Shown here in pieces: positions 13,734-63,204 of a stretch of DNA of 64,000 nt. The DNA comes from Spinacia oleracea (taxonomy: Eukaryota; Streptophyta; Magnoliopsida; Caryophyllales; Amaranthaceae). Made by a program: the position numbers and the translations under genes. Within the stretch, counting starts at the first letter, position 1. Each line of letters begins with the position of its first letter. The stretch is taken from assembly GCF_020520425.1 (NCBI RefSeq), contig NC_079490.1:3038001-3102000 (forward strand). Reading direction: 5' to 3'. The notes under the pieces are model-generated. The model was not told the origin of the DNA. It did not search any database and saw nothing but the letters and a program-made list of their open reading frames with translations.

Positions 13734-16700
13734 ATGGCAAACAACAATCAAAACATCATCATGGGTTCTGAGCTTATGGTCAAGCTGAACCTGACAAATT
13801 TTCTTGAATGGGAAGCTAAGCTAGTTGAAATAGTCAAACTCAATGGACTTGAGTATGTACTATCACATCCCATGCCAAGCTACTATGCCAGAGACATGAC
13901 CCCTGAGAGATTTTACGCCTGGGATGCGGATCTCAAAAAGGTTATGAGTCTCATGCTGAACAATATCCCTGATGATTGGGCTAGAAGGTTTGTAGCTTAT
14001 GAACCTTTTACGCTCATCAAGAATCTGAGGGATATCTGTCGTGGAAGTACGGAGGACAGGGACCTGAACGTCCATGAGTTGATTGAATCAATGTCTGGGC
14101 TAAAGGTTAGTTCTCCCAACAGGTGTTATAGGATGGAGGTCCAAGAAACACATGTTCAGCTCCTTCGCACCAAACAGAGGGTAGGCGTCCCACTGAGGTT
14201 CCATGTGGATCTTATGTGTTCATATTTTGATCGCCTAAGTCTACTAGGAACACCAATAAGCGAAAGGATGGCAGTCTCTGTCTTGCTCAATTCACTACAC
14301 AGTGGGTTTGGTCGCTTCAAGCAACAATACCTAAGTGAACCAAGAGAAGAAACAATTGCAGAATTTATTCACCTTGTCAGAAAGGCTGAAATAGTACTGG
14401 ACTGTGAAGCCAAAGATTTACTCAAGGCTAGAAAGAGACCATTCAAGAAAGGTGGAAAGTCCAAGGGCAATGCTAAATCAAAGCAGGACAAGTCCACATC
14501 AAGCTGTCTTTATTGTGATGGAATAGGCCATTACAAAAGAGAATGTCCGAAGCTAAAGGAAGATCAGAAGAACGGAACAGTCGTTCCATCTTCAGGTATT
14601 TTCGTTATAGACTGTATACTTGCTAATTCAACTTCTTGGGTATTAGATACAGGTTGTGGCTCACACTTATGTTCCAATCCACAGGGACTAAGAAGAAGTA
14701 GAAAGTTAAGCAAGGGAGAAGTCGACCTACGAGTGGGAAATGGAGCACGGATTGCTGCATTAGCCGTAGGAACTTACTATTTGTCGTTGCCCTCCGGGCT
14801 AGTTTTGGAACTGGAAGAATGTTTCCATGTTCCAAGTCTTACTAAAAACATCATTTCAGTTTCTTGCTTAGATGCTAAGGGATTTTCCTTTATAATAAAA
14901 GACAATAGTTGTTCGTTTTATTTTAAAGAGATGTTTTATGGATCTGCTAGATTAGTCAATGGACTTTATTTATTAGATCACGACAAACAAGTATATAACA
15001 TAAATACCAAAAAGGCCAAAAAGGATGATTCAGATCTCACCTATCTGTGGCATTGTCGATTAGGCCATATAAACTTGAAACGCTTAGAAAGACTTCAAAG
15101 GGAAGGAATTCTAGAACCATTTGACTTAGAGGATTATGGTAAATGCGAATCATGTTTACTTGGCAAAATGACAAAGCAACCTTTCTCTAAAGTTGGAGAA
15201 AGAGCAAATGAACTATTGGGTTTAATCCATACAGATGTATGTGGACCAATGAGTACAAATGCTAGAGGTGGTTTCAGCTACTTTATCACTTTCACTGATG
15301 ACTTCAGTAGGTATGGTTATGTCTACCTAATGAAGCATAAGTCTGAATCCTTTGACAAATTCAAGGAATTTCAGAGTGAAGTAGAGAATCAATTAGGCAA
15401 GAAGATTAAGGCACTGCGGTCTGATAGAGGCGGTGAATATCTGAGCTATGAATTTGATGACCATCTGAAAGAATGTGGAATTCTATCAGAATTGACTCCT
15501 CCTGGAACACCACAATGGAACGGTGTGTCAGAACGGAGGAACAGAACCTTGCTAGACATGGTCAATGATGGGTCAGGCCGAACTTCCATTAGAATTTTGG
15601 GGACATGCACTAAATACAGCTGCACTCACTATAAATAGAGCTCCGTCTAAAGCTGTCGAAAAGACTCCATACGAATTATGGTTTGGAAAGCCTCCAAATG
15701 TGTCTTTTCTTAAGATTTGGGGATGTGAAGTATACGTCAAACGATTAATTTCAGACAAACTTCATCCAAAATCTGACAAATGTATCCTTGTGGGCTATCC
15801 AAAGGAAACAAAGGGGTATTACTTCTACAATACATCTGAGAACAAAGTGTTTGTTGCTCGAGATGGTGTCTTTTTGGAGAAGGATCACATTTCCAAAATG
15901 ACAAGTGGGAGAAAAGTAGACCTCGAAGAAATTCGAGTCGAACAACAAACTCTAGAGAATGCTCAAGATGACATTCAGGATGAAACTCAGAGATCTTTAG
16001 AAGAATCTGGTGAGAATCATGGTCAATCTAGAAATGTTACCCCGCGTAGATCGCAAAGATATAGATCTCAACCGGAAAGGTACTTAGGTATTTTGACGAA
16101 CGAGAGCTATGACGTTCTATTACTTGAAAGTGATGAACCTGCGACTTACAAGCAAGCTATGACGAGCCCTAGCTCCAAGCAATGGCAAGAAGCCATGCAA
16201 TCTGAATTAGACTCCATGTCTGAAAACCAAGTATGGGATTTGGTCGATTTGCCAGATGGCTACCAAGCCATTGGAAGCAAATGGGTTTTCAAACTGAAAA
16301 AGGACAAGGATGGGAAACTTGAAGTTTTCAAAGCTAGATTGGTTGCAAAAGGTTACAGGCAAGTCCACGGTGTGGATTACGATGAAACCTTTTCACCAGT
16401 TGCAATGCTAAAGTCTATTCGAATAATGTTAGCAATCGCTGCATATTACGATTACGAAATATGGCAGATGGATGTCAAAACTGCTTTCTTAAACGGCGTT
16501 TTAACAGAAACTGTGTTTATGACACAGCCTGAAGGTTTTGAGGATCCAAAGAATGCTAAAAAGGTATGCAAGCTAAAGAAGTCAATCTACGGATTGAAGC
16601 AGGCATCCAGGAGCTGGAATATACGTTTTGATGAAGCAGTCAGTGACTTTGGTTTCATCAAGAACGCAGACGAATCTTGTGTATACAAGAAGGTCAGTGG

Positions 16701-17715
16701 GAGCAAAATTGCTTTCCTAGTATTATATGTCGACGACATATTGCTTATCGGAAATGACATTCCTATGTTGAACTCTGTCAAGATTTGGCTTGGGAAATGT
16801 TTTTCGATGAAGGATCTAGGAGAAGCACAGTACATATTGGGCATCAAGATTTACAGAGATAGATCTAAAAAGATGATTGGACTTAGTCAAAGCACTTATA
16901 TCAATAAGGTGCTTGATAGGTTCAAGATGGCGGACTCCAAGCGAGGCTACCTACCCATGTCTCATGGAATGACTCTAAGCAAGACTCAGTGCCCAAAAAC
17001 ACTTGATGAGCGTAGACGAATGAATGGGATTCCATATGCATCATTGATTGGTTCAATAATGTATGCTATGATATGTACACGCCCGGATGTTGCGTACGCA
17101 CTCAGTGCTACGAGCAGATACCAGTCAGACCCAGGAGAGGCGCATTGGACTGCTGCCAAGAACATTCTGAAGTACCTGAAAAGGCACAAAGATGACTTCC
17201 TGGTCTATGGTGGAGATGATGAATTAATTGTTAAAGGCTATACGGACGCAAGTTTCCAAACCGACAAAGATGATTTCAGATCACAGTCTGGGTTTGTCTT
17301 CTGCCTCAACGGAGGAGCAGTAAGCTGGAAAAGTGCTAAGCAAAGCACCATTGCGGATTCTACAACTGAAGCGGAGTACATTGCTGCACATGAAGCAGCA
17401 AAGGAAGCTATATGGCTAAGGAAGTTCATAGGAGAACTTGGTGTAGTCCCCTCCATTAAAGGACCAATAGCCCTGTATTGTGATAATAACGGAGCTATTG
17501 CACAGGCAAAAGAGCCTAGACACCACCAGAGAGTCAAGCATGTACTTCGTAGATTTCACCTTCTACGAGAGTTCGTTGAAAGAAAAGAAGTCGAGATAAG
17601 CAAAATTGGAACTGATGACAACATATCAGATCCATTAACTAAACCTCTGCCGCAAGCGAAGCACAACTCGCACACTGCAGCTATGGGAATCAAGCATATT
17701 GGAGAATGGCTTTGA
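13734..17715 (+). mobile_element. copia gag-pol coding region
   Basis: Gag starts at MANNNQN (13734) and has a CCHC knuckle CLYCDGIGHYKREC near 14505-14546. Protease LDTGCGSHL follows near 14642. Integrase shows WHCRLGH, the CX2C pair and DDFSRYGYVYL near 15300. Reverse transcriptase has the YVDDILLIGND core near 16726-16760, and RNase H has DASFQT and TEAEYIA near 17247-17385. This is the Ty1/copia domain order. The region is a fossil with about one break. Confidence 0.9.
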
Positions 17716-18580: not shown

Positions 18581-19921
18581 TGAAGGAAATAATGCCCTTG
18601 GTCCAAGTATGCATTCTATGTTAAGTCTAATAAATGCGGTTCAGTATTAATTAACAAGTTAATAATTCAGTGAGATCAAGTGAGCTGAATGCCTAGCTAG
18701 AGGCCGCTTCAGTTCAAGTGGAATTAATGATATTAATCCACAGCTTACTCTTGACTGAACCCGTAGGGTCACACAAATAGTACGTAAACGGATCAAGTAT
18801 TTAATGGCATTAAATACTCCATCTATGAATATTCGGAACCGACGGATCTTGGTTTCAGTGGGAGCTAAGATCGTCACAGGCAAGAAATGAATACTCCGGA
18901 AACGATGATATTGCCGGAAACGGAAATATGGATCGTATCGGAAATATGAATATTATCCAAGTCGTAGATGTTGCCGGAAACGGAAACATGGTACGTATCG
19001 GAAAATATTATTGGAAATGGAAATATTACCAGAATCGGAAATATTGCCGGAAACGGAAATATTGTCAGAATCGGAAATATTGCCGGAATCGGAAAATAAT
19101 TCCGGAAACGGAAATATTAAATATTTGTTCGAAACGGAAATTAATTCCGGAATCGGAAATATTAAATATTGTTCGTATCGGAAATAGATTCCGAAAATGG
19201 AAATTTAATCGGAAGCGTATCGTACGAATTAGCATCGGACGAGGCCTGCCGGACGAAGGCCCAGCACGAAGCCAGGCCGTCGCCCAGCAAGCACGCACGC
19301 CACAAGCCCAGCGCGCGCCAAGGCCACGGATGCGTGGGCCTTGCTGCGTGGGCTGCAGCTCGCACGCATGGGCAGTCCTTGTGGCTGCCGTGTGTGTGTG
19401 AGTTTGTGCTCATGCGTGATTCCTGAATCTGCAAGAGTCAGTGTATGATTAAATGTCTATTCCTAATTGGATAAATTAATTAAATAGAATTCATGTAGGA
19501 TTCTAATTCCAATTAATTCGCATCCTACTAGGATTACGATTCCTTTTCCATAACTCTATAAATAAAGGCCTAGGGGTCATAATTTATATACAAGTTTCAA
19601 AGTATTCAAAAGTGAGTTTTTTGAGAGAAAATTAAAACACATCTTGCTCATAAAAGTGCCGAATTTTCTAGTACCTTAAGGGCGATTCTAGTTGGTCAAT
19701 CTTAAGGCGGATCCGGACGTGCTGTGGACTATCTACGGAGGGACGACACTTGGAGTCCTAAAAGACTTGTTCTTGTTCGGTTCGGGCGCAGCTAGGGAGG
19801 GCACGCAACAAAGAGTATGCATCTAATTATGCTATATGATTATGTGTAAATAATATGATTCCTGGGTTAATGGTTGTTTCCGCATGATTTATGTAAATGT
19901 CATATGTATCATAACCTAACA
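18581..19921 (+). repeat. 3' LTR of the copia element
   Basis: This LTR is 1341 bp and matches the 5' LTR base for base on inspection, except for one substitution in the stretch after the CGGAAATA repeats. It begins right after the polypurine tract and ends at the ATGCG target duplication. Confidence 0.93.
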
Positions 19922-24463: not shown

Positions 24464-26425
24464 TCATCTCAAATTCGTACCATTATCTTCTACTTCTTCC
24501 AACCCATTATGACTACCAAAATCAACATGACCCATCGAATAATACGACTGAAACCCACCGGAAGTCGACATTTGACCCGACCCGCTACTACTCGCCGACC
24601 TCTCAATATCCTCCAACTCCGCATTAAACGAAATCGGCCGTTCCGGTATCGCCGGAACCTGCATATTTTCCGTCTCCAAAATCTTCACAACTTGATCCAT
24701 TGTTGGCCTAGCATACAATTGTGGATGCGAACACAAAACCGCCGTCAAAACATACTTCTCCATCACAGATTCCGGCCCCAATTCCGGCATCCCTTCTTCA
24801 ATAACATCTAACCCATGCCCTTTTCTGACCAACGACCACGCCCAATCCGTCACCAACGACGGCGACAACGACGGATTCCCGGCGTCAGATAAGATCGCTT
24901 TCTTACCACTCAAAAGCTCGAGTAAAACAACCCCGAAGCTGAAAACGTCGCTTCTTTCCGTTAACTGACCGTAAAGAGCATATTCCGGCGCAACATACCC
25001 CATTGTTCCGGCAACACGAGTACTCAAATGCGAAAACCCTTCTGGGTTAAACTTCGCAAGACCGAAATCAGCAACTTTCGCTTCAAAATTATCATCCAAT
25101 AATATGTTGCTAGCTTTAATATCACGATGAATTATCGAAGGTTGAGCTCCGTAATGAAGGTAAGCTAACCCACGCGCCATCCCCAACGCGATTTTCTGTC
25201 TCACCGGCCAACTGAGCTTCGTTGATCCGTATAAATGATCATGTAAACTACCATTATGCATTAAATCACAGACGATTATTCTTTGGTGACCTTCTAAATT
25301 GGTGGTGGCGACGCAATAGCCTCGGAGTTCGACGAGATTAACGTGACGAATACTTGCGATTACTTCGACTTCGTGGGTGAAACTAGCGTCGCCGGCGGCG
25401 GAGCAGTTTTTGAACCTTTTGACGGCGATTTCTGTGGTGTTATCCGGTAATAGACCTTTGTATACGTTTCCATAGCCGCCTTTTCCGATGAGGTTATCCC
25501 GGTGGAAGTTTTTTGTGGCGCGTTTTATCTCGTCGTACCCGAATTTCATCAAATGGGTACTTCCACCTATTGAGGAGAGATTCGGTCCTGCTCCTGACCC
25601 GACCCGGTTGATTCTCCTTTTTTTTTCAGCCATTTTCGCTCGATTCTTCTTCAACCTCGAGAAAAAGTAACCCCCGACGAAAATTGAGCATATTCCGATG
25701 AACCCTACGACTGTAATTAGAGAAATCAGCAGTATTTTTTTCTTCCGATTGTTGCGATTTTGGGAGGAGGAGAAATCGAGTGAGAATAAGCATTTCGCGG
25801 TGCCAGGATCAGACGGTCCGTATTGATTGATTAAAGCTCCGGCGTAAATCAACGGTAGATTTGTACAATCGGAGATGTTACCGTTGAAAGGACTATTGGA
25901 AGTGAGATATGAAGCTTGCAGAGTGGTGAGGCTGGTGAGACAGGAAGCGCAAGGGGACCCGTTTTCCAGCGACTGGTTACAGTTCGAAACGGCGTCGTCT
26001 AAGGCGGATTGAGGAACGAGTCGCTCGAATTCCGACCGAGTTGAGATGTTCATACAACCTTCGGAGATCCACTGAGTTCTGAACCCGCATGAGGACCGGA
26101 TCTTGAACCCGGGGAGGAACGAGTCGACGACTGAGTCGTATGAGGTCCAGCATGACTCGGAGGTGTTAACGGGTGGGTAGAATGACCCGGTGGATTGGAG
26201 GTATTGAGAGAGGACGAGGCGTAGACCTTCTGCTATGTAGCCGCAGTTTGCTCCGACGTCGTTTGAGGGTTTCACGTCTGCGTCTCGGACTAGTGTGCTC
26301 AAGGTGGTGAAGTTCAGTGGACATGGTGAAGAAGATGATGAGGTGGAGGGTACGGTGTCGTTTTGAGCTGAAGAAAGGAGTAGGAGTTGAAGAGAGAGAA
26401 AGAGGAGAAGATGGAGATGACACAT
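24464..26425 (-). CDS. RKF3: RKF3-like SPARK-domain receptor-like serine/threonine kinase
   Basis: A single-exon gene for a 653-residue plasma-membrane receptor kinase that should sense an extracellular cue and phosphorylate cytosolic targets. In order, it has a signal peptide (about 1-20), a cysteine-rich SPARK-type ectodomain (about 35-215, starting at PCPLNFTTL and with the pair CASCLTSL), a transmembrane helix (about 231-255), a basic stop-transfer run, and a kinase domain (about 307-575). The kinase has the glycine loop GKGGYGN (314-320), Lys336 in IAVKRF, HRDIKASN with Asp435, and DFG at 453-455, so it should be active. The Ser/Gly-rich tail carries possible phosphosites. Length and layout match Arabidopsis RKF3. 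The start is the only Met in front of the signal peptide. Ligand and role are not known from sequence. Tandem repeats begin directly upstream of the ATG. Confidence 0.9.
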   Translation of the reverse strand: MCHLHLLLFLSLQLLLLSSAQNDTVPSTSSSSSPCPLNFTTLSTLVRDADVKPSNDVGANCGYIAEGLRLVLSQYLQSTGSFYPPVNTSESCWTSYDSVVDSFLPGFKIRSSCGFRTQWISEGCMNISTRSEFERLVPQSALDDAVSNCNQSLENGSPCASCLTSLTTLQASYLTSNSPFNGNISDCTNLPLIYAGALINQYGPSDPGTAKCLFSLDFSSSQNRNNRKKKILLISLITVVGFIGICSIFVGGYFFSRLKKNRAKMAEKKRRINRVGSGAGPNLSSIGGSTHLMKFGYDEIKRATKNFHRDNLIGKGGYGNVYKGLLPDNTTEIAVKRFKNCSAAGDASFTHEVEVIASIRHVNLVELRGYCVATTNLEGHQRIIVCDLMHNGSLHDHLYGSTKLSWPVRQKIALGMARGLAYLHYGAQPSIIHRDIKASNILLDDNFEAKVADFGLAKFNPEGFSHLSTRVAGTMGYVAPEYALYGQLTERSDVFSFGVVLLELLSGKKAILSDAGNPSLSPSLVTDWAWSLVRKGHGLDVIEEGMPELGPESVMEKYVLTAVLCSHPQLYARPTMDQVVKILETENMQVPAIPERPISFNAELEDIERSASSSGSGQMSTSGGFQSYYSMGHVDFGSHNGLEEVEDNGTNLR

Positions 26426-26429
26426 TTCT

Positions 26430-27455
26430 ATTCTAGAGTTGTTGTTGATTCCATGGATGTGGGTTTTTGGTTTTGGTTTTGGGTTTTGAAAATGATTGGA
26501 TATAATTGGGATATGTTGATTTCAAGAACTCAAAACAAAAGTTGAGAGTGGTTGTTGAATCTATGGATGTGAGTGGGTTTTTGGTTTTGATTATGGGGTT
26601 TGAAAATGATTGGATATAATTGGGATTTGTTAGGGTGTTTGTATTGCCGTCTGTTATGTTGATTTCAAGAACTGACAACAAAAATTAGTTGAGAGTAGTT
26701 GTTGAATTCATGTATATAAGTGGGTTTTTGGTGTTCGTTATGGGTTTTGAAATAATTAGATATAATTGGGATTAGTTATGGACTCGGTATTACCGGCTGT
26801 TATATTGATTTCGAGAACTGATAACAAAAGTTATTTGAGAGTAGTTGTTGAATACATGGAGTTGAGTGGGTTTTTGGTGTTCATTATGGGTTTTGAATGA
26901 TTGGATATAATTGGGATTAGTTAAAAGGTTCGGTATTACTGCTGGTTATGTTGATTTCGAGAACTGACAACAAGAAACTGATTGTTGATGGGCCAAGTGG
27001 AGGTGTTAACCAAGCAAGACTAAGAGCAAGCGAGGGCTCTGATATCACCACCAGTTATGTTGATTTTGAAAACTGGCAGCAAAAAATGGTAACGAACGTG
27101 GCAAGTGGAGTTATTAATCAAGCAAGATTAAGAGCTTGTGAGGGGTCTGATATCACCGCCAGTTATGTTGATGGATCTGACAACAAAAAATGATAACTGG
27201 CGGGCCAAGTGGAGGTGTTAACCAAGCAAGATAAAGAGCATGTGAGGGGTCTGATATCACCGCCAGTTATGTTGATTTCGCAAACTGACAACAAAAAATG
27301 GTAACACACAGCGCAAGTGTAGGTGTTAATCAAGCAAGATTAAGAGCATGTGAGGGTATGATATCACCACCAATTATGTTGATTTCGAGAACTGACAACA
27401 AAAAAGGGTCACGAACAGGGCAAATAGGGGGGTGTTAATCAAGCAAGATTAAGAA
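26430..27455 (+). repeat. Two tandem-repeat families directly upstream of the RKF3-like gene
   Basis: Family 1 has four units whose shared start (GAGAGTAGTTGTTGAAT-like) falls at about 26432, 26545, 26691 and 26837, so the unit is 111-146 bp. Family 2 has about five units of about 105 bp, marked by CAAGCAAGATTAAGAGC near 27013, 27119, 27223, 27332 and 27438. Both families share a segment like GTTGATTTCGAGAACTGACA. The first unit starts within a few bases of the kinase start codon, so the arrays occupy the expected promoter and leader. Confidence 0.8.
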
Positions 27456-28167
27456 CATGTGAGTAAAATTAAGGACTAATAATAAAATAAGATATCTGGA
27501 AATTAATAGTGCAAGGAACAGCAGCCAGAGGGATAGTGTGTAGTGATGTTGATGCTGAGCTGATACTATGAATGGAGACAAAGTTAGATGGCTCCTTCAT
27601 GCTTCTAGGAAAGTTGGTTTATTCCTTTTCATGTTTTTTTTCTTCTTCTTCCTATTTTAAGGGGCCACTTGTAACTATGTAGAAGACTTTTGACTGGAAT
27701 GGTAACTAAAGGTTGTTAGAGCAAGCAAGCTCTTGGTGTTGGTCTTGGTGGTGGACTGGTGGTGCAGATGGAGGAGCAGAGTTGGTCGCAGCGGGGCGTG
27801 GAGGGGGAGACCGTGGTCACGAACGTTGAGGGTTAGTTTGGGGATTAGACAATGGGATTACGCGGGTGACTAAAGTTGGTAAAGAGGAATTCATAAGCAG
27901 TATTGTATGGTCACCTCAATTTTCACAGATTCGTGTTGATCATTACTTGTACTTAATATACTTCGTATAAGTTATTCATGATATATTGGGTAAACCAAAC
28001 TCAATGTATGTTCTATGTGGAGTACATATCTTATCATTGGATATACTTTTGCAAATATTCATTTCTTTTACTTTTATCGCAAAATTTTGACTTTGCAAAT
28101 AATAAAGAACGGAGGAAGTAACTCTTTGATTTCGTAACCATTTTCTTGTTTAGCATACAATAGAACA
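27456..28167. other. Intergenic, no supported gene
   Basis: A G-rich patch (27720-27850) is surrounded by AT-rich sequence. It may include distal promoter of the receptor kinase. No exon, terminal repeat or RNA gene was seen. Confidence 0.5.
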
Positions 28168-30813: not shown

Positions 30814-31656
30814 AGTTAGCAATTGAGCAAATAATGCCTCTTAAAAACTTATTCATATAATTACATAAACAGCTGAATTCGAGTAAGCGATCATGCATTT
30901 AGGTACGGGTCAGGTCGGGTTTCACTGTTTCAGGATATTCTCTTTTTGAGAGTTCAGGTTGGGTTTTCAGACCGGGTTAGAGATGGCTAGCTCTCTCTAG
31001 TCCTCTACTACTTAAACGTAAAGGACAATTTGGGTTTAACACCTAATCATCGTTCGAGAACTGAGTGTTGTGCTGGATTCTGGCTATTAATGGGCCCCCA
31101 GCCCGTTGAACAGGTCTCTGCTGGAGTATCAAACACCAATCCTAGGAGGGTTTCAACACACTTTCACAAACCAGGCTTAAATGACATCTAAAATAACAGA
31201 AAGCAGCAATTATTCTTCCCCATATGCTTGTTATGCTCATAGCAATCATGTCACAGAAAAGAGGTGTTCCATTCATTCACAAAGGGGCATAAAATAGCTA
31301 TTTCTAGTTATTAATTTGAATCTTAGAGAGATAACTGGTGATTGATGAACACCATCTTCTCAAATTTCTAAAACATAATAATGTGATGCATCAGTGTGCA
31401 TCATAACAGAACAGCAGAGGAATCCGAGTGAAAAAATTAGAGATATCATTAAAATGTTAAAAGCTACCTTTCGTTTTTCCTATGTTTTATCAATATTAAA
31501 GTTCTCTTGTTTCATAATGTTATGCTACCGTTCCTATGTCTGGAAAATAGGCAATGTGTCGTTACCTCAGGTTGCACCTTCTTGCTTACTATCTATCTGA
31601 AAGCTGTATTTGATCCTAGGCTCCAAACTCCAAGTACAAAGCAAAATCTGTTTGAT
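30814..31656. other. Intergenic, includes likely 3' flank of the methyltransferase gene
   Basis: No exon chain or RNA gene is supported. The bases just below 31657 would be the 3' untranslated region of the minus-strand methyltransferase. Confidence 0.5.
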
Positions 31657-34600
31657 CTACTGAAGGGTAATCTCGTAAATGACCCCTTCCAAGTTTCCAA
31701 CGACTGAACGGGTTCCACAAACTTCTTTCGTTGACAAGCCATGTCCCTGGGCCTCGTTGAGCACCATCTGATCCATTCTGTGTAAGGATGAAAGATGTGA
31801 GTATCAAAAATACTTTCATAGCAAGAATTTTGAAAAGTAGATAACATAGATGAACAACGATACCATCAGACACGGACACACCAAAAATTAATATCCAAAT
31901 TTTAGTCATATAATATCCTTTTTCTTGTCTTAACCATAAGAGAGTCATTTTTACTGTATATAATTCTAGTTCTAAATCTATACCAAGTATAAGGAAAGTT
32001 AACCTAACATCATATATCCAGAAACCGGTATACAAAAGGGGGGAAATGAGTGGTTTGTAATGACTTTTCAAGCTTTTCTACAGAGTATCGTTTTGGTGTC
32101 ATAAGAGAGAGTCCATTTTTATCTACTCATTTCGGATCTTATACCAAGTATATGCGAAGTTAACCTAATATCATATAATTATCAAGAAACCGTTATACAA
32201 AGGGGGGGAAATGAGTAGTTTGTACTTTGTAATGTCTTTTAAGCTTTTCTACAAAGGATTAATTACTTTTAATAATCCAACCTTTGAGCCATTTTCCAAA
32301 ATTAATCCAACCTTTTGATTATTATCTAATAATCTAACCTTTATACCCCTTTAACTAATAATGCACCCTACCTGTTACGAAACAGGTAAAGCCGGTCATA
32401 TTGATGACGTGGCTTATGGCTGTTGTAAGTAGTGTGAGTGGGACATTTAAAACACCACTTTCCTTTTATTTGTCCCCCTTTACATTTATTCCTCCTCTTC
32501 TTCTTCTCCAGATCCTTAGAAATCGCCATTGATGGCCAAGCTTCAATTTTTATTTTATTTACTTTTAATTCAAGGTTAATGGCCTTTCATGGATCTTTAG
32601 CAAGGCGATTAGCAATTCGAACTTTGATGTTTGCTCTTGTCACTTCGATTTTGCCCCTTTTGCAACTTGTGATTGATATTGATCCTGCAAAACCCATGTT
32701 TATGAGCTCTAATGGAGTAATGGATGTGATACTAAAGTGGGTTATTTTGACCCGGATTCGCTCTTTGGCAGTTTCTTAAACTCAATACTCCATTCGTATT
32801 CCCACATTTGAGATCTGTTAAAGGGGTATTCCCAAGTCCCGTTGGCAGCGCGCAATGCTTCAGTTGACTTGTTCAGTCGGTTCCCAGTTTTTTGGAGCAT
32901 TATCGGTTAAAGGGGTATAAAGGTTAGATTATTAGATAATAATCAAAAGGTTGGATTAATTTTGGAAAATGGCTCAAAGGTTGGATTATTAAAAGTAAAT
33001 AATCCTTCTACAAAATAATCTAAGTATATTTGTGCATAAAAATAACCAATTTGGCCATTGTGGTAGGCCTCTACTATGGTTAGCTAACCACATTCTCTTC
33101 CGTTGTGGGCCCTCCTAATCTCTTCCTTCTATGGGTTGAAGTTACGGAAGAAAGAGAGAGAACCAAGAGAAGGTATCAATAGAAGCTCATATCAAACGTC
33201 TTAACATCTAGCAACTAGCATTGGGTGGACCTTCTAGTTTATACAAAAAGTTAGCATAAAAGATGAAAATATATCACTGTCATAAATTTCCTCAATGTTA
33301 ATAGCATGTTATTGTTATAGATTCTTTGCTGAGAGATCAACCAACAAACTACATGGCTTAAAAGTTTATTTTAAAACAATGGAAAATTTAAGAAATCACG
33401 AAATTTACTCACACTTTGGCGCGAGAGACATAACCCAGAATGAATCTGCATCTTCCTTTTCCTCTGATTTGAAGAAGCCTCTTAACTGTATCGAAAAGCA
33501 AGGGAATACTGGATTGTTGGAAGCGTATAAATTGTCAAGGCCCACAACAAATATATGCCCACGAAAATAAACGCAAAAGTGATAACTGAATACTTTTCTA
33601 CGAAAAATTGCACAAAGATGACAAACATCAAAGTAAATCTCAATCAACTGCACGCTTCAACAGTCTATCAGTCTATATATAGACATAGGCTGGTTGAAAC
33701 ATAGCACATAAACACCATCAATGAAATAAGAACTAGTAACGATAGCATGATTTGAATTTGCAAGAATTCACAATAAAATAAGAGAAAAATCAGGATATAA
33801 ATATCTGCTCCAAGAATTAGATCAAATCCTTCCGGATATCTTTGCAGAATTTCATTTCTCTGGTCAGAACTTCCCCATTCTAGTTTTTCGGCTTCCAAAT
33901 CTGAGAGAAAGAAATTGTAAATGCATATCAGTTCACTGACATGACATATACCACAATTGCTGCTCCAAGTCCCTTTTACACACCAGAGCAAGGGAAATTC
34001 TCAGAAGATGCATGTAGATCTATATTTTTCTTCAGGATCTGCATGACAGGAAAACACAAACAGTTACGCCAACAAAATTAAACCCAAATCTTCTAAATCT
34101 AAGTCTATAAACTATTAATTATAAACTATTAATTACATGACCTTGCCTTAAGAACTTCATCACTGTGGTCAGTCATCAGAACTTTTTTGCAAAATCTACT
34201 ACAGAGTACTCCGGTGACACCTGTGATATTGGAGTTGAAAGTTGAAAGATTTGAAAAACAGTACAGTAGGTAGAGAAGTAGGAAAAAAAGATAATTGTTT
34301 ATGCAATTTGTTTTAAAGATGATGTAAGAGAAAATGAAAAAGTACGAGACAGATTCAAGGTTCCCCCACAATCTGCAACATATCTCAATGCATGGGAATA
34401 GCATAAATTCCTTGTAAAACAAAGAGTAACACACAAAGTTCTTATGCTGAATTTGTCAAGAACTATCACTATCATTCTATCAAGGACATGGCCTGATGGC
34501 TTCTATAAAAACCTATTTCCATTCTTTTATTAATTCCTTCGAGATAAAGAGGTGTTCAACATCATAAGCATCTACTCGACCATAATTTATCAAGGTTGCA

Positions 34601-36436
34601 TGGGAATTGTTAAAGTAAAACATAGCATATTTGGCTTTCTGTTCACAAAAACTAACATTACCAAGTTCAATCCAATATAATAGTTGTGCACACTGAAACA
34701 GGCGAACAGCTGAAGAGTGGAAAGGGTGGGGTGGAGAGGGAACATACACGCCAAATAAATAAGCTATTAAAGTTAAAATGAAAGAAAGCTCAAGAGGTCA
34801 AAGCTCTGGATTCTTGAACCACACCAAACACAGATATAATTATAGCCTTATTGAGCTCACAATTTATCCAAAATACAACGCGACTAATTTCCAATTCCAG
34901 ATTACAAAGTTCTACAACCCTACATAAAGAAGATAGCTTAGATCAAAGAAAATGGCATACCAACACCAGAGCCTAACTCAATAACAGAAAGTCCTTGAAG
35001 CATCTCAGCATTTTTCGACAGGTATTCATTCAACAGCACCGCTCCAGGCCACACCAGTTGGCCAGTCAGATCAAAATCAGCTGCCCCAAAACATACCAAT
35101 TTCAGTATTACTTCTCCATGGTACATTTAAAAATTACCAATAGAATTCTAATCAAGTAATCAGGCTTTGATTTTTGAAATAGATTATGCGTAATTGCAGC
35201 ACATAAATGTAACTGATCAACATCAAAATGGTTATTTTCTTGCAAATTCCTGAAAACCCATTTCATTAAACCAACTATTGAAAGCAAATTTACTCACTTC
35301 AACCTAAATGAAGGCAAAATAGCTCAAAAAAATAAATTGTTCTTACAAAATTGTTTGCAATTCCAGAACATTTTACCCAATAGTGTAATCAACCAACAAC
35401 AGTTGAAGTTTTGCACAATAAGTTGTAAAATCACACAAAACTCAACTGATAATATTAACAATTGGAAGTGAATTTACTCACTTCAACCTAAATGAAGGCA
35501 AAATAGCTCAGAAAATTAAATTGTTCTTAAAAAATTGTTTGCAACAGCAGAACATTTTACCCAATTGTGTAATCAACCAACATCAATTGAAGTGTTGCAC
35601 AATAAGTTGTAAGATCACACAAAACCCAATTGATGATATTAACAATTGGAAGTGAATTTACTCACTTCAACCTAAATGAAGGCAAAATAGCTCAGAAAAT
35701 TAAATTGTTCTTAAAAAATTGTTTGCAACTGCAGAACATTTTACCCAATTGTGTAATCAACCAACATCAATTGAAGTGTTGTACAATAAGTTGTAAGATC
35801 ACACAAAACCCAATTGATAATATTAACAATTGGAAGTGAATTTACTCACTTCAACCTAAATGAAGGCAAAATAGCTCAGAAAATTAAATTGTTCTTAAAA
35901 AATGTTTGCAACTGCAGAACATTTTACCCAATTGTGTAATCAACCAACATCAATTGAAGTGTTGCACAATAAGTTGTAAGATCACACAAAACCCAATTGA
36001 TAATATTAACAATTGGAAGTGAATTTACTCACTTCAACCTAAATGAAGGCAAAATAGCTCAGAAAATTAAATTGTTCTTAAAAAATTGTTTGCAATTGCA
36101 GAAAATTTTACCCAATAGTGTAATCAACCAACATCAATTGAAGTTTTGCACAATAAGTTGTAAAATCACACAAAAACCCAGTTGATAAAATTAACAATTG
36201 GAAGTGAATTTACTCACTTGAAGCTGAATGAAGGCAGTATAGCTCAAGAACTTGAGACCCAAATGTGAAAGTGGTCAATTGGTAACTGCAAAATCAAATT
36301 AATTTACATAATTGATTCAACATTCAGCAATATCAGTTGATAGATTAATAGATAGAGAGGGAGAGAAGGGTTACTTGTCATTGATGAAGAATGATTCGTC
36401 CAAACAAACAATATCATCTTCCTCTTCTCCTTCCAT
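31657..36436 (-). CDS. METTL21/Methyltransf_16-type protein methyltransferase, 8 exons
   Basis: Exons in gene order are 36436-36375, 36285-36218, 35080-34961, 34220-34147, 34038-33984, 33900-33799, 33524-33413 and 31777-31657. They total 714 nt, giving 237 residues plus TAG, and all phases agree. The start is MEGEEEDDIV. The protein shows the family's order: DLTGQLVWPGA (46-56), SAM-binding motif I IELGSGVG (77-84), the acidic post-I strand LMTDHSDEVLK (98-108), the family motif FDLILGADICFQQ (152-164) and GYVSRAK near 191-197. Such enzymes transfer methyl from SAM to lysines of partner proteins; the substrate here is unknown. Introns are unusual: one is AT-AC (33798-33525), one GC-AG (34146-34039). 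Intron 2 holds a tandem array and intron 7 a MULE and a local duplication. Confidence 0.87.
31934..32255. repeat. Two-copy tandem duplication (about 160 bp) in methyltransferase intron 7
   Basis: The segment with CATAAGAGAGTCATTTTTA, ATACCAAGTATA, GGGGGAAATGAGT and AAGCTTTTCTACA occurs at about 31934-32092 and again at about 32099-32255. The MULE at 32256 was inserted at the end of the second copy, since its target duplication TTCTACAAA is the unit's own end. Confidence 0.75.
32256..33005. mobile_element. Mutator-like element (750 bp) with gene-like cargo, possible Pack-MULE
   Basis: The terminal inverted repeats are about 100 bp and nearly perfect (from GGATTAATTACTTTTAATAA inward). The flanking 9-bp duplication TTCTACAAA at 32247-32255 and 33006-33014 is the Mutator mark. 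The unique core holds a plus-strand frame with ATG at 32578 (MAFHGSLARRLAIRTLMFAL), a basic and then hydrophobic N-terminus, ending at 32779. It looks like a captured host gene 5' end. I cannot name the donor gene. It lies in intron 7 of the methyltransferase, antisense to it. Confidence 0.85.
33525..33798 (-). other. AT-AC U12-type intron of the methyltransferase gene
   Basis: On the minus strand the intron opens ATATCCTGA after exon ...GATATTT and closes TTTATAC before exon GCTTCCAACAA. A branch site CCTTGAC (33540-33534) places its A ten bases before the 3' end. These three signals match the minor spliceosome's AT-AC class (ATATCCTT, TTCCTTRAC, AC). Splicing here gives GADICFQQSS, the conserved family sequence. 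No GT-AG alternative restores it. Confidence 0.85.
35283..36219 (-). repeat. 184-bp tandem array copying exon 2 of the methyltransferase
   Basis: The segment TACTCACTTC occurs at 35291, 35475, 35659, 35843 and 36026 and its parent TACTCACTTG at 36211, a period of 183-185 bp. On the minus strand each unit has a stretch like the end of exon 2 (GCCTTCATTTAGGTTGAA against the true GCCTTCATTCAGCTTCAA) followed by the donor GTGAGTAAATTCAC. Two units (35729-35734 and 35912-35917) also keep a CTGCAG acceptor about 63 bases upstream. The array therefore lies in intron 2 and repeats exon-like pieces with splice sites. Confidence 0.85.
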
Positions 36437-39429
36437 TGTTAGGTTTTTGATTTTCCCTCCACAGAGATAGAACCCTATTCTTCAGAAAAATACTGGGTAC
36501 GAGAATTAGCTTTCTTCGATTTTTTGAAGTTTGGATGCTACTTGAATCCATATTCGTTTCATTTCGGCCCATGATCAGCTATGTAACTATGTTTGAATTT
36601 TGAGGGGAAAAATTAGTGCGTTCATTAATTAAGGGATACTTTGTCCGTGAATATATAAGAACGTATTTCACTGTGACAACTGTTCTCCCATTATTTGTTA
36701 TAAATTGGACGTCACTAACTTAGCTAAGTGATGGCAACGGAGTTCTCATCGCTTTTGACATGAGACCAATCAACAAAGGAATAATATGTGCTAACTTCTA
36801 AAACATCCTCAAGTATAGAATCAGGTCTGGAGAATAAGTTAAAACATCACTCAATCTGGTCACCATGCTCCGACAATCTGATTCAAGAATAACTCTCGAC
36901 AACCCGTACCTACGAGCGAGCTTGGTAGCAAATAAGATGGCCTTGCATTATGTTATGTCTGGTGGTCGATCAACTTCCTCGCATACGCCTGACTCCGACA
37001 AATAGCGTTATGTTTGAATTTTGTTCTTGATATATTTAAACTTTTCTTAAATGAAAAGCCTGTTTACCATCATCTTGATTTTGTTGTATACAAAATAATG
37101 TTTCAAATTGTTCTCTTGAGTTTTTTTTCCCCCTAATAAAACAATGAACAAACTGAGATATGAGAAACTTAGTTTGACTGGTTAGAACTTAGAACTATGA
37201 GTGACCAACACAAGCTACCTTATCAATAATTTATGGAATTGAATCGAAAGTTGATTCTTGAAAATGAAATCGGAATGTTCCCAAGTCATCCCGACCTATA
37301 GCAGACTCAATAGCAGAGATTGAACCCTAACGTTGTGAACTTGAGATTGAAAGCTGGAATCTTTTCTAGATGGTCAAGCAACTTGTGCACCACTGCAACA
37401 CTATGGAAATAATTAGCCAATATGTAAAACCGCAACATCATGGTCTTTATTACTTTTCCACTTTTTTCCACAAGACATAGTAAATTAGGAGGAAGTATTT
37501 ACACATATCTGATATGTGTAACCCAACACATATCTGACTCAAAAGAAAAGATAAAATAAAAAGTAAAGTGATTTTGGGGGAAAATGAAATTGAATAGCGA
37601 AAGACAAATGACATCTCTGCCAAGTTGGACCATGTGACGTGGAAAGAAGGGAGCTTCACCCCAAAACAAAATTTGTCTCCTTTCCCCCAAATCGTCTTCT
37701 TCTCCCCCAATTCACTTGTTCTTCTTCTTCCCCAATTCACCTTATCTTCATCAATTCTAACCTATTGATGAACAAAAACAAACAAATTTAAACCACAATA
37801 AAATTAGCTTCCGAATTATGGACGGAATAATTTTTTTGCGATGAGTTCGAGAGAAATAGATGCTGAAACTGGACGATTATCAGGCTAAATATAGTTGCAT
37901 TCCACAATTTAGATAGTGCCATTCCAATTAAGAAAGTACCATTTATACTTTATAAAGTACCATTTCAATGTATAAAGTACCATTTCTTATTAAAAAACTA
38001 CCATTCATATTTACAAATTCAACGTCATTTTACCTGAATTTTGCACTCTGAGATTAACTAATTACGAAACTTTTGGGAATAATCCAACAACATTACCATT
38101 AAACAATAACACTCCGATACATTACACACGAAAAAATCCATTAAACAATCACATTAACAAATTTTCAGATCGACTCAACCAATTTTTCAATTCAATAAAA
38201 AAATTGAAAACTTAGGGAATTACCTTCAAATGAAAAAGACCCACAAAAATCTGAGTATAATCACACTTCTGAGGAGAATCACACTTTAGAGAAGAGTAGA
38301 TCTGAGCTTCAACAAGGAGAAGAGGTTGGAGGAGAGAGAAGAGAGAAGAGAGAAATGAGGGAGATGAGAGAGATTGACGAAAGATTCGAGAGAGCAAGCA
38401 GAGACTAATGCCACGCTGGAAAACATTACCCACCAACAACCAACACACATGGATTTCATTAAACAAGTCAGCATTTTCAAATTTAGGATGAAGTTACCAA
38501 CATACCCCTGATATGTTTTTCTTGGTGCATGTCTGATAGCCGCTGCAAAAACCTCGTAAATTAGAGGAGTAATACACTAAAGTAGATGCAATTTGACTTA
38601 AATACAAGTCAACATTTAATGTCAATTGAAATGGCAAGGGACTGGCTTTTTAAGGAGCTCACAATCTTTGAATTGATGCATATTCTCCTCACCTCTTCTT
38701 TGTCATGAAGTGTATAGTTAAGGGGAAGTATTGAGTTTCACTTAAGTTACTTTTCTCATTTATATTTTAATATACATAGACCTTTTTTTAGGGAATATTT
38801 TAATATACATAGACAAGGTTTCACTTAAATCACATTTCTCATTTATATTTCAATATACATAGACAAAAAAAAGTAGCTTTAAAATTTTGAAAAGTAAGAA
38901 ATATTTCTTCCGCGACTGATGTAACACACGAAATAACCTTCTCTGGATGTCAAGTTAAAACATCTTAAACATTTATTTTTAAAAAAGTAAGAAATTTTGA
39001 TTTTCATGGCTTTGCCGCTCACTAAAACAAAAAAATATAAGTCTTGTTTGACAGTCAACTATTTAACATGGTATTTAGTTATTTTAATTTGCTGATTCCC
39101 AGTCAACCACTCATACGATACTCCATACTACATATTATAAGGTAACTTTCCTAGAAATACCAAATGACGAATTCAACTTAAATATTCCTTAAAAGTCACA
39201 TAATAATATTATAACATCAAGAGTAATTGACTTAAAAAAGCAAAAGAATAAATGGAATTGAAGAAATTGACCAACTTCCAACTAAAAACTACCCACCCAC
39301 CAATTTCCCTCCCTTTCTTAACTTCTTTGGTCATCAAAGGTTGAATTTTTAATTGAAAAATACAAGTCAAGTGTCTCAAATCACAAACCTTTAAATTGGG
39401 ACAAAGTATTTTTCCTACCACAAGAATCA
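36437..39429. other. Intergenic between divergent genes, no supported gene
   Basis: The first 150 bases would hold the methyltransferase leader and promoter. 37840-38000 has repeated TACCATTT words. 38220-38480 on the minus strand is a CT-rich leader-like stretch with a donor-like GAAGGTAATT, possibly a captured gene leader, but no exon follows. 39400-39545 is the pyrimidine-rich start of the HMG-CoA lyase leader region. Confidence 0.5.
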
Positions 39430-46868: not shown

Positions 46869-49800
46869 ATGGATGAACGCGAATTTCAACGCCTTCTTCT
46901 CCTCTTCCCTGTCATCCGAACACCCGATTACTGTGTATTTTCTCTCTCCTCTTCTTGTTACAGTAAAACCCTAGATTTTGTTTGTTGTTCCCAATTTTGA
47001 TTACTGCGTATTTTTCTCTCTTCTCTTCTTGTCAACAGTAAAACACTAGATTTTTGTTTATTGTTCCCAATTTAGATTACTGATTCATATGGGTACTTTG
47101 TGATCTTAAATCCATGATTTATACCTGCTCACTTGCTTAATTTTGGGGTTTATGATTAATGTTTTTGATGGGGTTTTGTGCATTGTTCCCAATTTAGATT
47201 ACTGATTCATATGGGTACTTTATAATCTTAAATTCATGATATATACCAGCTCACTTGCTTAATTTTGGGGTTAATGATCGATTTTTTAGATGGGGTTTTC
47301 GCCATTGTAAGTCTGATTGATGGGATTAGTCCCTAGTTCCAGATTCCAGTTTTACTACACATTTCTAGTAGTCTTGCTGAAATTCTATTCTGGGTATTGC
47401 ATTTACAGTAGTTAAGCTGTGATTAGCATTCAATTTGTGGGAGAGGGCTGGATAGAAATTGAAATATCAAATTTGCACATTTGGGAATTGGGAATTGTGT
47501 TTTTCTAGTAATGAAATCTCCATATGCTTAGAGTAAATATTGGTACAATGTGCTTGGGGTCGTTTCGTCTGGAAATCATAGTCACATGTGCAAATTTGGG
47601 ATGTCCGGAATAAGTTGTCGGAATGGGAAGAGTGCATGATTGATACAATTATTATAAAGACCTGGTAGGACCATGTCATATTTTAACTATATAGGAGGTT
47701 GGAACAGTGTAAATTCTTTTGGGTGGTTGGACTGTTGGAGTATGACAATGTTGCCTTAAAGAGTTAAGCGCCTCCAAGGACCAGGGTTACCTGGTTCGCT
47801 AGTATGAGATTGGGTACGGGTTTGCAATTCGCTACCTAATTTGCTAAATTAGACCAAAATTATACCATTTTGATGTTGTAATTCTCTTTTTCGGTTCGCG
47901 GTTTGTGGGCTGATTGGAGGATTAGGTAGCACTGCCGAGGACAATAAATTGAAGCTTCTTTCAGTCTATACTTTCAAAGAGAGAGGTAGAATTCAGAGAG
48001 AGACTTTCAGTAGAACTTAATGGATATAATTGCCGATAGACTAGCAACAATTCAGAACGAAATCCGTCAGGCAGAAAACCAGAAGATCCAATATGAGCAA
48101 ATGCTCGGTCTGTTCTGGGAGCATCCGCCTGCTCTTGATATCGAAGATGTAGGAAGAAGGATGCATTTTTTACTGGACTGCATTCAAACCCTAGAAGACC
48201 AGAAAAGGGCCCTCCTTAATGAAGAACAAGACCTGATTGTGCAGGCCACCACCCTTGCCCGCCACGGAGATTAGAACAGAAGATTCCGTCGACTCTTTCT
48301 AGAAGATTTAATAAGTGTCTGTAGACGCATAGTAGTGTGTTTTAATGTATGGTCTTCTTCTTCTTTGTTTGGTTTTCTTTGTTATGTTTGCGTAAATAAA
48401 TAAAAAAATCGAGCAATGTTCTGAAATCACTTTATATATACTATTATGCCCATAATGATTGTTAACTTTCTCTTGCTCCATTCTCTTTTTGAGTTTTTGC
48501 TCTAGATGTTCTTGATTTTGAGTTCAAAAACGAATGTACAAAATTACCTTTGTCTAAGCTCGCCCCAATCTAGACTTAGCCCATATCTTTTGCCTTGTCA
48601 TTCTGATACAATATTATAGAAGCTCTGCCATATCTATCAGCTAATTAGCTAGCCGCCGTTACCTAGTCTTAGCTACTCTCATTTTCCTTCGGCTTCTGAA
48701 GTGAAGGTTCTTACTGATGACTGCATTTATTTCGCTTGCTTCTATAGTGATTACCCGTCCCTTGCTAAGAAAAGGGAATTCCAAGTAGTCTTGTCATGAA
48801 TCAAAAGAGTAACCCTCGGGGTTGAACTGGCTTCTTGAAATATAAAAAATGGCTCTGATGTTGATCGGACGGATCAGGAACATGTTAATAGCCCCCTGAC
48901 ACCAAATTCACTGTCTGCCTATCCTTGAGCAGCAGGGAAGAACTTTGGTCATAACTGAGATAGGAATCCGGTGGTTTCTGTCAAATATTTTTGCTTGAAA
49001 TGATTTTATTATGGGTGTAGAATATTATGGAGTGATGTAATAAACTAAGAAATACTGTTGTTGTCTTTCCTTTTCCGTGTTTTGGATCTGATTAATTTCA
49101 CCGTCTTTTTGAAATAGCAAGCCGACGCAGAATCTTCAGGTCAATCTACCTCACAGGCAGAAAAGAATGAGGAGGTGGTCTCACTTAATTTATTTATTTT
49201 TGCTTCGTGGTATTGCATTGCTTGCTTTTTTTCCCTATATGACCATTTTTTATCTCCAGGCACTAGAGTGGCAAGATGCTTGGAGTGAGCAAGAAACCAA
49301 TAACCAAGGTATTTTCCGATAGTGGTACTCCGTATTAGATTGTTGTTTTATTGAAAATTTTACAGGTACTTTGATGTCCTTGAGTGAAAACTTTGGATCC
49401 TAAGTGTGCCTTTACTTTCATAAGTTGTTCCTCACTCCCTCTTCTCCTTATTGCATTTAGAACTTATGTATCTTACGTTGTCATTTATAGAAGACATGAA
49501 AACCAGTTTTGTGAAGAAAATATTTGAATCATATGTTCCAGTTGATAACTCTAATCCAATGTCATGCAGATTTGTATACCAACGTCGTGACCTTTTTTTG
49601 CTATCTTAGACTCCTTTGAGGGTTTAGATATGTCCACTTTTCTTCAATTATTTAGTTGCTCTGCAAATGTTTAAAAACCTTAATGATGTCATTGATGATG
49701 ACTTGCTTTTTTGACTGATCCTATTTTTTCGAACTGTAACCAATTGATATCGTTTCCACGTTTTGTAACAGATGTCTTCTGGGATAAGTTAAAATCTACA

Positions 49801-55726: not shown

Positions 55727-58411
55727 CTAGATTTAAAGCCCGTGCGATGCACGGGTTAATTTTTTTTTTTTATGAGATATTTTTTCAACTTTAAGTGATA
55801 GTTAAGAATGGGTCTTTATTTATCTACTAAATTTTTAAAAAATAAATGTTTAAAATTTATCTCTTATAATCTTTTACCGGATCTTTATTTATCTATTTTT
55901 AATTTTCTCGTACTATCTTTTACTCCCTCCATTCCTTTTTGTTGTTCCTATTTCCTTTTTTGGCGTTTCTTTTTGTTGTTCCCCTACTGAATCTTTACTA
56001 TTTTTGGCCATAGTTTTTTTTACCAATTTACCCTAAGATTCCCCACTATTTACCAAAAATACCCTAAGATTCTACCCTTTCCCACCCACTTTTACCCCAC
56101 CCACCTTATTTAATTATTTAACCTAACCCCACCCCCCTCCCTTTATAACCCGTCGCTTTCTCACACTTCACTCTCATCCCTCATTCTGATTTCTCTCTCT
56201 CACCTCTTCGGATCTCTCTCTCTCTCTCTCTTATTTCACTCTCTCTCTCTCTTAAAATCCCTCCCCTGTTCTTGAGAAAATCCTAGGTTTTCCGCCTCTG
56301 TTCTGGGTTTTCCTCTCCAAATCTCTCAAATCTGAAACGTTTTCGCCGAAAAACTTTCATAAAAATTACTCGGATTCATTTTCCGATCAGATCCCCTCTA
56401 TGTTTGTCCCCTTTTTGGTCCCTAATCGTCGTTGATCTTTGTTTTTCTGGTACGTGATGGGTTCTTCTTTGTCTAGAACTCGAGATGATTCTGGGGTGGA
56501 AACTTCTGGTCAAAGAATCCCCGATTCCAACTGTGATTGGGGATCCAAGTGCAACTGTCCCAATAACGAGCATTCCTACTCCGCCGAATATAAAAACAAT
56601 CTGTATTTGGCCCAAAAAGAAAATACGAGTACTCGAAACTATTTGGAAGAATGGTTTCGGAAGAGGGAAGTGGAGCCAGGAGAGGAGGTTGAGTCAAAAT
56701 ATGACGATCGGAAACCCACTCCCTCAGATCTACGTTTTTTCGGTGAAGGAGATTCCGATGAGGTATTACTTTTGATTTTTTGCGATTTATTTAGGGTTAT
56801 TTATGTCGGTTTTATTAAAATGGTTTGATGATTGTTTGCATGTCTAAAAAAGTGGGATTTGATAAATGTTGGATTTATTTAGAGTATTGTTCATTGAACT
56901 CGGATTATTTATTGGATAAGTTGCTCTGATTTCCCATTGCATGTGTTAAAAATGCAGATCTGATATTATTTCGAATTTGTTGGGAATTTTTTGGAGATTT
57001 GTTGGATTCAATCGGACTTTTTATGTTATTTTTTGCTCTGTTTTCTCATTGCATGTTGTTAAAATTGAGTTCTGATTTTATTTGGATATATTTGGAAATT
57101 ATTTGAAGAAAATCGGAATATTCATGTGTTTTGTTGATCTGTTTTCCCATTGCATGTGGTTAAAAATGGGATCTGGATGTATTTGGGATTTTTTTGAAAT
57201 TTTTTCGGTAAAAATGGGATCTGGATGTAAAAATGGGATCTGGATTTATTTATCTTTTTTACTTCCTAGCAAAATTTATCTTTTATTATCTTTTACCGGG
57301 TTTACAATTTTAAAAGACGAACATATCTGAATCATCCACCTAAATCGCATCCATATGTCAAACTGCTAATAAAGCAACTTAATTCCGTCAAAAAGAATGC
57401 TAAAACCAGATATAATAAGCAAAAATTAGGAGAGAAGAAGTACCAATAGATTCATGTAATGGTCAGGATCAAAGGATGGAGAATTAATTGTATCCAATGT
57501 AGCGTACTTTGAAGAAAGTGTACTTGAATTAGCTACTGAAATTGTTTGATCCGTGAAATAGAAGCTCGATAAAGATTAACTCGGCAAAGAAGTAATCAAC
57601 ATCGTGCAACAGAAAAAATAACACCATTGAATCTTCTCGGAGACTCGGAGTCATTGAGACATGAACGTAAAGGGATATTTTCAGCAACAAAATTCACCTT
57701 AGATGGTAATACAAAGCTAGAACAACGATGTGATTAAACCATAGGTAAAAGAATGGTCATATTATACAAACTATGGAAAACCGATATGATTTTGTCCAAG
57801 GTCGTCAAAAAGTTGATCTCAGGATCTTTGAAGCAATGTTAATCATAAAATATGATCAAGATGTTAACCGAGTTAAAGAACAAATCTAAACTTTAGCATA
57901 ATTCTTTGCCTTACCTAGGATAATCCTTTGCAATTACTCGTATCCATTATGGCAAATCATAAAATCATTCTTGGAAAAAAAAAAAGTAAGTACCCTACAC
58001 AATGCCTACAAAGTATAAAGCATTAACAAATGAACAAATACTAATAAGGCTTACTATGAAAAATACATTCAACAAATTAAAAACAAATTATTAAGAACAA
58101 ATTATACAAAACGTTTATTTGCTTAAAGGAATACGTTTATTTGTGCTGAAAGATATTTATTATCTCAATTATTCATCCCAAAAGGTTTCCCTCTTTATAT
58201 ATACAAAAAGGTAGAAGAGAAAGATAATTTTTTGTTGAAATCTATCTTTATCATATTATCTACTAATTTAATCATGGCAAGGGATCTAATATTTATTTTT
58301 TATTTTTTAATAAACCTAAAATATTAGTTAATAATATGTGATGATGTGGAAATCCTACGTGGACGCTCTAAATGCTCTCCAAAAAACTCCCCTTTATATA
58401 TATATATTAGA
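55727..58411 (-). mobile_element. Non-autonomous Helitron (2.7 kb) carrying gene fragments
   Basis: On the minus strand it starts TCTAATATATATATATAAAG at 58411 and ends with hairpin CCCGTGCATCGCACGGG, eight bases, CTAG (55730-55727), and T in the flank. These are the expected Helitron termini. No Rep/helicase is present. The interior holds a plus-strand promoter-leader-exon fragment (about 56100-56762) and a single Stowaway-like end at 55922. Its 5' end lies about 250 bp from the RPL10 start codon. Confidence 0.8.
56457..56762 (+). pseudogene. First exon of a host-like gene captured by the Helitron
   Basis: A CT-rich leader (56158-56270, TCTCTCTCTC runs) leads to ATG 56457 and 102 in-frame codons, ending at a donor GAG|GTATTA (56762/56763). 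The product begins MGSSLSRTRDD, a possible N-myristoylation start, and continues as a polar acidic segment with NYLEEWFRKREVEPGEEVES. No downstream exon is found before the Helitron ends, so the copy is partial. The family is not recognised. It may still be transcribed, because leader and start codon are intact. Confidence 0.6.
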
Positions 58412-58659: not shown

Positions 58660-61716
<3,057 letters not shown>

Positions 61717-62716: not shown

Positions 62717-63194
62717 GAGCTGTGCGACATGCAAGTCTCATGCATGGTTTTTAATGAGAGTGTAGAAGTGAGGAATCCTCTTTTCGACTCAGACTCTTCC
62801 ACTCCAATCGTTGCTTTTCTTTCTGTTACTTCGAAAGTAGCTGCTTCAGCTTCACCCACTCGAATTTTTGACATTCCCTTTTATTTCTCATCAAAAGAAT
62901 GGCATATTCTTCTGGAAATTCTAGCTATTCTTAGCATGATGTTGGGGAATCTCATTGCTATTACTCAAACAAGCATGAAACGTATGCTTGCATATTCGTC
63001 CACATGTCAAATCGGATATGTAATTATTGGAATAATTGTTGGAGACTCAAATGATGGATATGCAAGCATGATAACTTATATGTTGTTTTATATCTCCATG
63101 AATCTAGGAACTTTTGCTTGCATTTTATTATTTGGTTTACGTAGTGGAACTGATTACATTCGAGATTATGCAGGATTATACACGAAAGATCCTT
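62717..63194 (+). pseudogene. ndhB: Nuclear copy of plastid DNA: ndhB intron end and exon 2 fragment
   Basis: The first bases (GAGCTGTGCGACATGCAAGT then CTCATGCATGG) are domain V of the plastid ndhB group II intron. The frame that follows is NdhB exon 2: [32 protein letters not shown]-like segments, [20 protein letters not shown] and [14 protein letters not shown], ending at [12 protein letters not shown]. NdhB is a membrane subunit of the chloroplast NDH complex, but here there is no exon 1 or rest of exon 2, so this is a non-functional transfer. Several substitutions against the usual plastid sequence (for example STCQ where plastids have SIGQ) show it is not brand new. Confidence 0.88.
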
Positions 63195-63204
63195 ACAAGC
63201 CATA

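Follow-up and report, generated by a model that had tools for sequence, protein, structure and literature searches.

A tandem array in intron 2 of a spinach (Spinacia oleracea) methyltransferase gene multiplies the end of exon 2 together with its splice donor. The array lies in a window of 64 kb, the whole stretch of DNA analysed here (contig NC_079490.1, positions 3,038,001 to 3,102,000, numbered below from 1 to 64,000). To judge from what its units match, it is an array of copied donors and not of copied exons, and it is a case of a known kind, the internal tandem repeat across an exon–intron boundary. We consider it probable that a tandem duplication across this boundary grew by unequal exchange, that splicing still proceeds from the first donor and that the spare donors are passive.

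The host gene runs on the minus strand from 36436 to 31657, and its eight exons, whose borders were placed from the reading frame and the splice consensus, give a complete frame of 237 amino acids. Exon 1 (36375–36436) starts with the ATG. Exon 2 (36218–36285) has 68 nt, the last ~30 of which (36218–36247) look like the source of the repeat, and exon 3 (34961–35080) carries the acceptor for which six donors would compete. Exons 4 to 8 lie at 34220–34147, 34038–33984, 33900–33799, 33524–33413 and 31777–31657. An earlier note on this DNA had put exon 2 on the side of 36285 and the start of exon 3 at 35080, in agreement with these borders. The protein matches the Pfam family Methyltransf_16 (PF10294, lysine methyltransferase) from residue 49 on with an E-value of 3.9e-23, as well as 10 distinct sequences with solved structures, which include METTL21-type enzymes, and the gene looks intact. 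Exon 2 codes for about residues 21–43, N-terminal of the Pfam match. Of four alignments displayed, the one with METTL21B (4qpn) starts at residue 23, which lends weak support to exon 2 being coding.

Other junctions of the same gene also deserve a description. Exon 4 is followed by a GC donor (AAG, then GCAAGG, 34141–34147), and intron 6 (33525–33798), with ATATCCTG as its donor and CCTTGAC shortly before its AC end, resembles a U12-type AT-AC intron. The donor of exon 7 (33401–33412) reads GTGAGTAAATTT, its first 11 bases being common to the array donors. A literature search under At5g44170, which we take to be the locus name, returned nothing.

Tandem Repeats Finder places the array at 35273–36246 on the minus strand, as direct repeats with a period of 184 bp, 5.3 copies and 95% matches. 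It sits within intron 2, which with the array measures 1,137 nt, and extends into the end of exon 2. Six GTGAGT donors begin at 36217, 36032, 35849, 35665, 35481 and 35297, spaced by 185, 183, 184, 184 and 184 nt, and the steady period of 183–185 bp that the earlier note had claimed for five tandem copies is borne out. The authentic donor of exon 2 (36212–36217) opens the edge unit U1 (36033–36217, 185 nt), and every later unit opens with a spare donor: U2 (35850–36032, 183 nt; donor 36027–36032), U3 (35666–35849, 184 nt; donor 35844–35849), U4 (35482–35665, 184 nt; donor 35660–35665) and the other edge unit, U5 (35298–35481, 184 nt; donor 35476–35481). The tail (35081–35297) holds the last spare donor (35292–35297) and the probable original intron 2 of ~217 nt. 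GTGAGT is unbroken in all five copies. With a 24-mer ending in GTGAGT, six sites were found at up to three mismatches, five of them exact (the copies) and one with three mismatches (exon 2); 100 shuffles of the window gave 0.00 matches on average.

A dispersed repeat as source of the array was rejected, within the 64-kb window, on a blastn search with U3. This search returned the array itself, the end of exon 2, palindromic matches of 23–24 nt on the other strand within the array and three short matches elsewhere in the window (24 nt at 58081, 27 nt at 59403 and 13 nt at 42553). Rfam at the gathering threshold gave no structured RNA match in 31000–38000, a pattern scan of viral contigs gave no match, and a protein scan of prokaryote genomes gave 26 pattern matches and no confirmed one.

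The identity of the copied segment emerges from comparison with exon 2. The last 30 nt of the exon and of U1 agree at 24 positions, as well as which none of 1000 shuffles scored; U1 to U4 all reach 24/30 and the last copy 25/30, and blastn aligns U3 to the exon 2 end at 24/29 (82.8%). That each copy repeats the end of exon 2 with its GTGAGT donor, as had been proposed, is confirmed in five of five copies by this identity and by the exact 24-mer. The accompanying description of the units as exon copies complete with splice sites was overstated, as only the last ~30 nt and the donor match. Whole-exon duplication is rejected on the same ground. In a global test of the 58 nt upstream of the exon-like end against exon 2 with its acceptor, 356 of 1000 shuffles scored as high or higher, and in a shorter test of the unit against the remainder of exon 2, 100 of 500 shuffles were as good; no clear match to the first 38 nt of exon 2 or to its acceptor was detected in the units. 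Local alignment of the unit with intron 1 plus exon 2 did reach a score that 6 of 500 shuffles equalled, for U3 as for U1, but through many gaps and in AT-rich sequence; given the failure of the narrower global test, this similarity is unproven. Because the upstream stretch is no closer to exon 2 than shuffles are, the first ~33 nt of the supposed 63-nt exon look intron-derived. Most simply, the copied segment would comprise the exon end, the donor and the head of the intron. In the original frame, the copied exon end translates as ELFCLHLG before it meets a stop.

The relationships between the units suggest how the array was built. Pairwise identities range from 92.4 to 98.9%, being 98.4–98.9% among U2–U4, 94.6–95.1% between U1 and U2–U4, and 92.4–93.5% between U5 and the other four. 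The tail resembles the unit over the first 45–52 nt past the last donor, with 78% identity to U3 over 45 nt. Beyond that, a collinear global test, in windows chosen after looking, was equalled by 8 of 1000 mononucleotide shuffles for U1 and 31 of 1000 for U5. In a local alignment, the tail beyond its first 60 nt matched the unit no better than shuffles did (168 of 500 were as good), and for this reason an ancestral intron of ~217 nt is not secure. We infer that the initial tandem duplication took in ~184 bp: the 3′ end of exon 2 (~30 nt), the donor and ~150 nt from the start of a short intron 2 (~217 nt). Unequal exchange would then have enlarged the array from the head of the old intron and homogenised it in part. 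U2–U4 look youngest, U1 and U5 would be older edges and the tail the oldest part. The protein would be kept by splicing between the first donor (36217) and exon 3 (35080), the five extra donors being passive baggage in the enlarged intron. Passive duplication is supported by the open eight-exon frame, the PF10294 match, and the second splice-junction duplication and other long-period arrays of the window described below.

Several other readings of the array have to be weighed against passive duplication. Near-identical units of 184 bp are difficult for short reads, and the true number of units could differ from the assembled one or the array could be an error. However, the units are not identical, with 20 variable columns among the 185 aligned, they show a gradient from edge to middle as in a real array, and ordinary gene sequence stands on both flanks, all of which makes an assembly artefact hardly credible. 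Another reading concerns an acceptor-like site, which reads CTGCAA in U1, CTGCAG in U2 and U3, CTGCTG (without AG) in U4 and CTGGAA (without AG) in U5. In U2 and U3, it delimits exon-like stretches of 62 nt (35850–35911) and 63 nt (35666–35728), both with an in-frame stop. The earlier note was right on the presence of CTGCAG in two copies with exon-like stretches of about 63 nt; its statement that these copies keep the acceptor probably has the direction wrong, and the pattern agrees with the middle units having gained it. The AG looks derived because neither edge unit has it (CTGCAA in U1, CTGGAA in U5), and states common to U1 and U5 and absent from U2–U4 occur at columns 53, 72, 100 and 121 (A at 121). 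In the simplest history, the AG would have been gained in the ancestor of U2–U4 and then lost in U4. Inclusion of the two stretches between exons 2 and 3, as poison cassette exons that trigger decay, could draw on the AG, the GTGAGT and the in-frame stop present in both, and by a crude pyrimidine count the CTGCAG site (5 T and 7 pyrimidines of 15) about equals the acceptor of exon 3 (6 and 7). It is nevertheless very improbable, given that CTGCAG occurs in only two of five copies, that the AG looks derived and is absent from U4, and that the stretch looks half intron-derived. Another AG, in CTTCATTTAG six nt upstream of each donor, is present in all five copies and has a better pyrimidine run than the CTGCAG site (9 T and 12 pyrimidines of 15), but the exon it would define has 6 nt with a stop.

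The donors themselves offer more to a regulatory reading. The earlier note had proposed poison exons or splice decoys, and the decoy half appears to fit the sequence better: the poison half is weakened by the lack of a detected inherited acceptor and by a derived AG in two of five copies, whereas intact GTGAGT in five of five copies, equal U1 energy and early stops suit decoys. The copied donors could compete for U1, slow or divert the splicing of intron 2, and lower or tune output through retention and through alternative donors with early stops. Such a role would be favoured by five intact donors whose predicted pairing energy with U1 equals that of the real one (-7.3 kcal/mol), by an invariant block around them and by the stop at codon 46 in each of the five alternative-donor products. 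We still hold it to be unlikely in view of the predicted folding. A small hairpin is predicted at all six donors, with -4.9 kcal/mol at the real donor (z -2.17), -8.1 at four copies (z -2.98) and -5.2 at the last (z -1.65). Opening the donor with flanks of 40 nt would cost 5.4 at exon 2, 6.4–8.9 at the four copies and 4.7 at the last, in an order unchanged with flanks of 20, 70 and 110. Four of the five spare donors would thus sit in a stronger hairpin than the real donor, and the last would be about as open as the real donor or more so; if real, the hairpins would favour the first donor over four copies, not over the last. Nor are the opening costs extreme among 38 donor-like minus-strand sites between 20000 and 64000, array sites included (median 3.7, 90th percentile 8.4). 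The hairpin as a special device was set aside on this same spread and stays a lead only. Folding of one unit gave z -2.34 and of the 920-nt array z -4.45 against 20 shuffles, values that repeats with internal palindromes might give anyway. The invariant block is a run of 57 nt that is the same in all five units; 29 of its columns are exon-like and 28 intronic, the latter comprising the donor and 22 others. The longest invariant run has P 0.012, for a block picked after inspection and changes that are not all independent, and the probability that 35 chosen columns (exon-like plus donor) would show no variation by chance is 0.012, that for 38 columns 0.0075. Passive decay would predict this block less well, which is a hint only. 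In the last copy, divergence jumps just past the donor (2, 8 and 6 differing columns in blocks of 20, 20 and 17), and this jump could be an exchange breakpoint. A more elaborate version, in which selection holds exon end, donor and hairpin constant while the rest drifts, would let the number of units set the diversion of splicing, or the protection by U1 from early polyadenylation, as a control tunable by copy number; we judge it decidedly improbable.

Under passive duplication, a limited misdirection of splicing is the most that the spare donors could cause. Past the end of exon 2 the frame runs into TAA at codon 46, in line with the early stop that had been predicted there, and use of any of the five array donors would lead to that stop, the last donor leaving an intron of 217 nt. 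The five 6-nt microexons bring stops as well. Decay would be expected for mRNAs with such early stops and exon junctions still downstream. The likeliest molecular effect would be a low-level use of alternative donors, giving mRNAs that stop at codon 46 and would be removed by nonsense-mediated decay. Overall, the array is most likely passive and looks like an ordinary local duplication.

A second splice junction in the window has been duplicated in a comparable way. In intron 1 of a plus-strand gene that we presume, from its protein, to be RPL10-like (region 59041–59445), Tandem Repeats Finder reports a 193-bp tandem duplication at 59041–59417. It copies the acceptor and five exon bases, TTTTTTTAG followed by GGCCT occurring both at 59231 and where the real exon begins, at 59435, and the copied acceptor, if used, would lead to a stop. 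Further arrays lie at 46926–47299 and 57010–57205, and adjoining arrays with units of 146 bp and 108 bp occupy 26512–27463, just upstream of an open reading frame (24464–26425, minus strand) that by eye is receptor-kinase-like. Two splice-junction duplications in 64 kb, beside other long-period arrays, point to a common mutational process more than to a special device, and a genome-wide count would show how often such events occur.

The rest of the window holds several mobile-element-like frames, named by eye. Identical open reading frames of 157 amino acids at 9876–10349 and 18928–19401 (plus strand) flank Copia-like frames at 13641–17715 (plus strand), as would the LTRs of one element, and Gypsy-like frames lie at 4466–9525 (minus strand). 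The frame at 62729–63205 (plus strand) resembles ndhB; we take it to be plastid ndhB-like, and it may be plastid DNA inserted into the nuclear genome.

If the spare donors are used, the array would provide a natural series of near-identical donors, evenly spaced by 184 nt in one intron. Such a series would help to measure how plants choose among equal donors, and the array could be a copy-number variant that alters the output of the gene. If they are silent, it would show how much tolerance a plant intron has for intact spare donors, here five in number.

A literature search by title and the start of the abstract found nothing on this array, on duplicated donors with decay or on competing equal donors. 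Several known systems share some of its aspects. Donor accessibility is treated in PMC9311317, and plant tandem repeats in general in PMC3887541. Poison exons (PMC11357089) and decoy exons (PMC8706089, PMC12017769) likewise involve splice sites within introns or close to them, with early stops or retention as the outcome, and are backed by RNA, whereas in the spinach gene no inherited acceptor was detected. The intronic VNTR of ABCA7 (PMC5954066), whose length correlates with splicing and expression, is likewise an intronic tandem repeat; it differs in being human and documented by population and RNA data. Tandem exon duplication with mutually exclusive splicing, as presented in PMC6071210, has in common the tandem duplication with an adjacent intron and stem-loops. 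Whole exons are duplicated there, while the spinach units copy the exon end only, without the acceptor; instead of a whole exon with both splice sites and a frame kept open, they yield early stops in the two cassettes and five microexons tested.

The closest parallels cross an exon–intron boundary. In human segmental-duplication genes, internal tandem repeats at such boundaries can alter splicing patterns, and units of more than 60 bp (62–126 bp) are listed for intron changes in the coding sequence (PMC2812944). The spinach array has the same arrangement of head-to-tail units with exon and intron sequence across the boundary. In a potato RdRp gene, an intron was gained through tandem duplication across an intron–exon boundary (PMC4974935), and this case shares with ours a plant gene and a boundary-crossing duplication that carries splice signals. 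A new intron of that type takes both its donor and its acceptor from the duplication; in spinach the donor was copied, and no copied acceptor was detected. Repeat number differs between the human paralogs with RNA support, and in potato the acceptor side was copied and the new intron shown, whereas the spinach array, read from the letters of one assembly, is a series of five copies of the donor side, with a 184-bp unit, in a plant gene.
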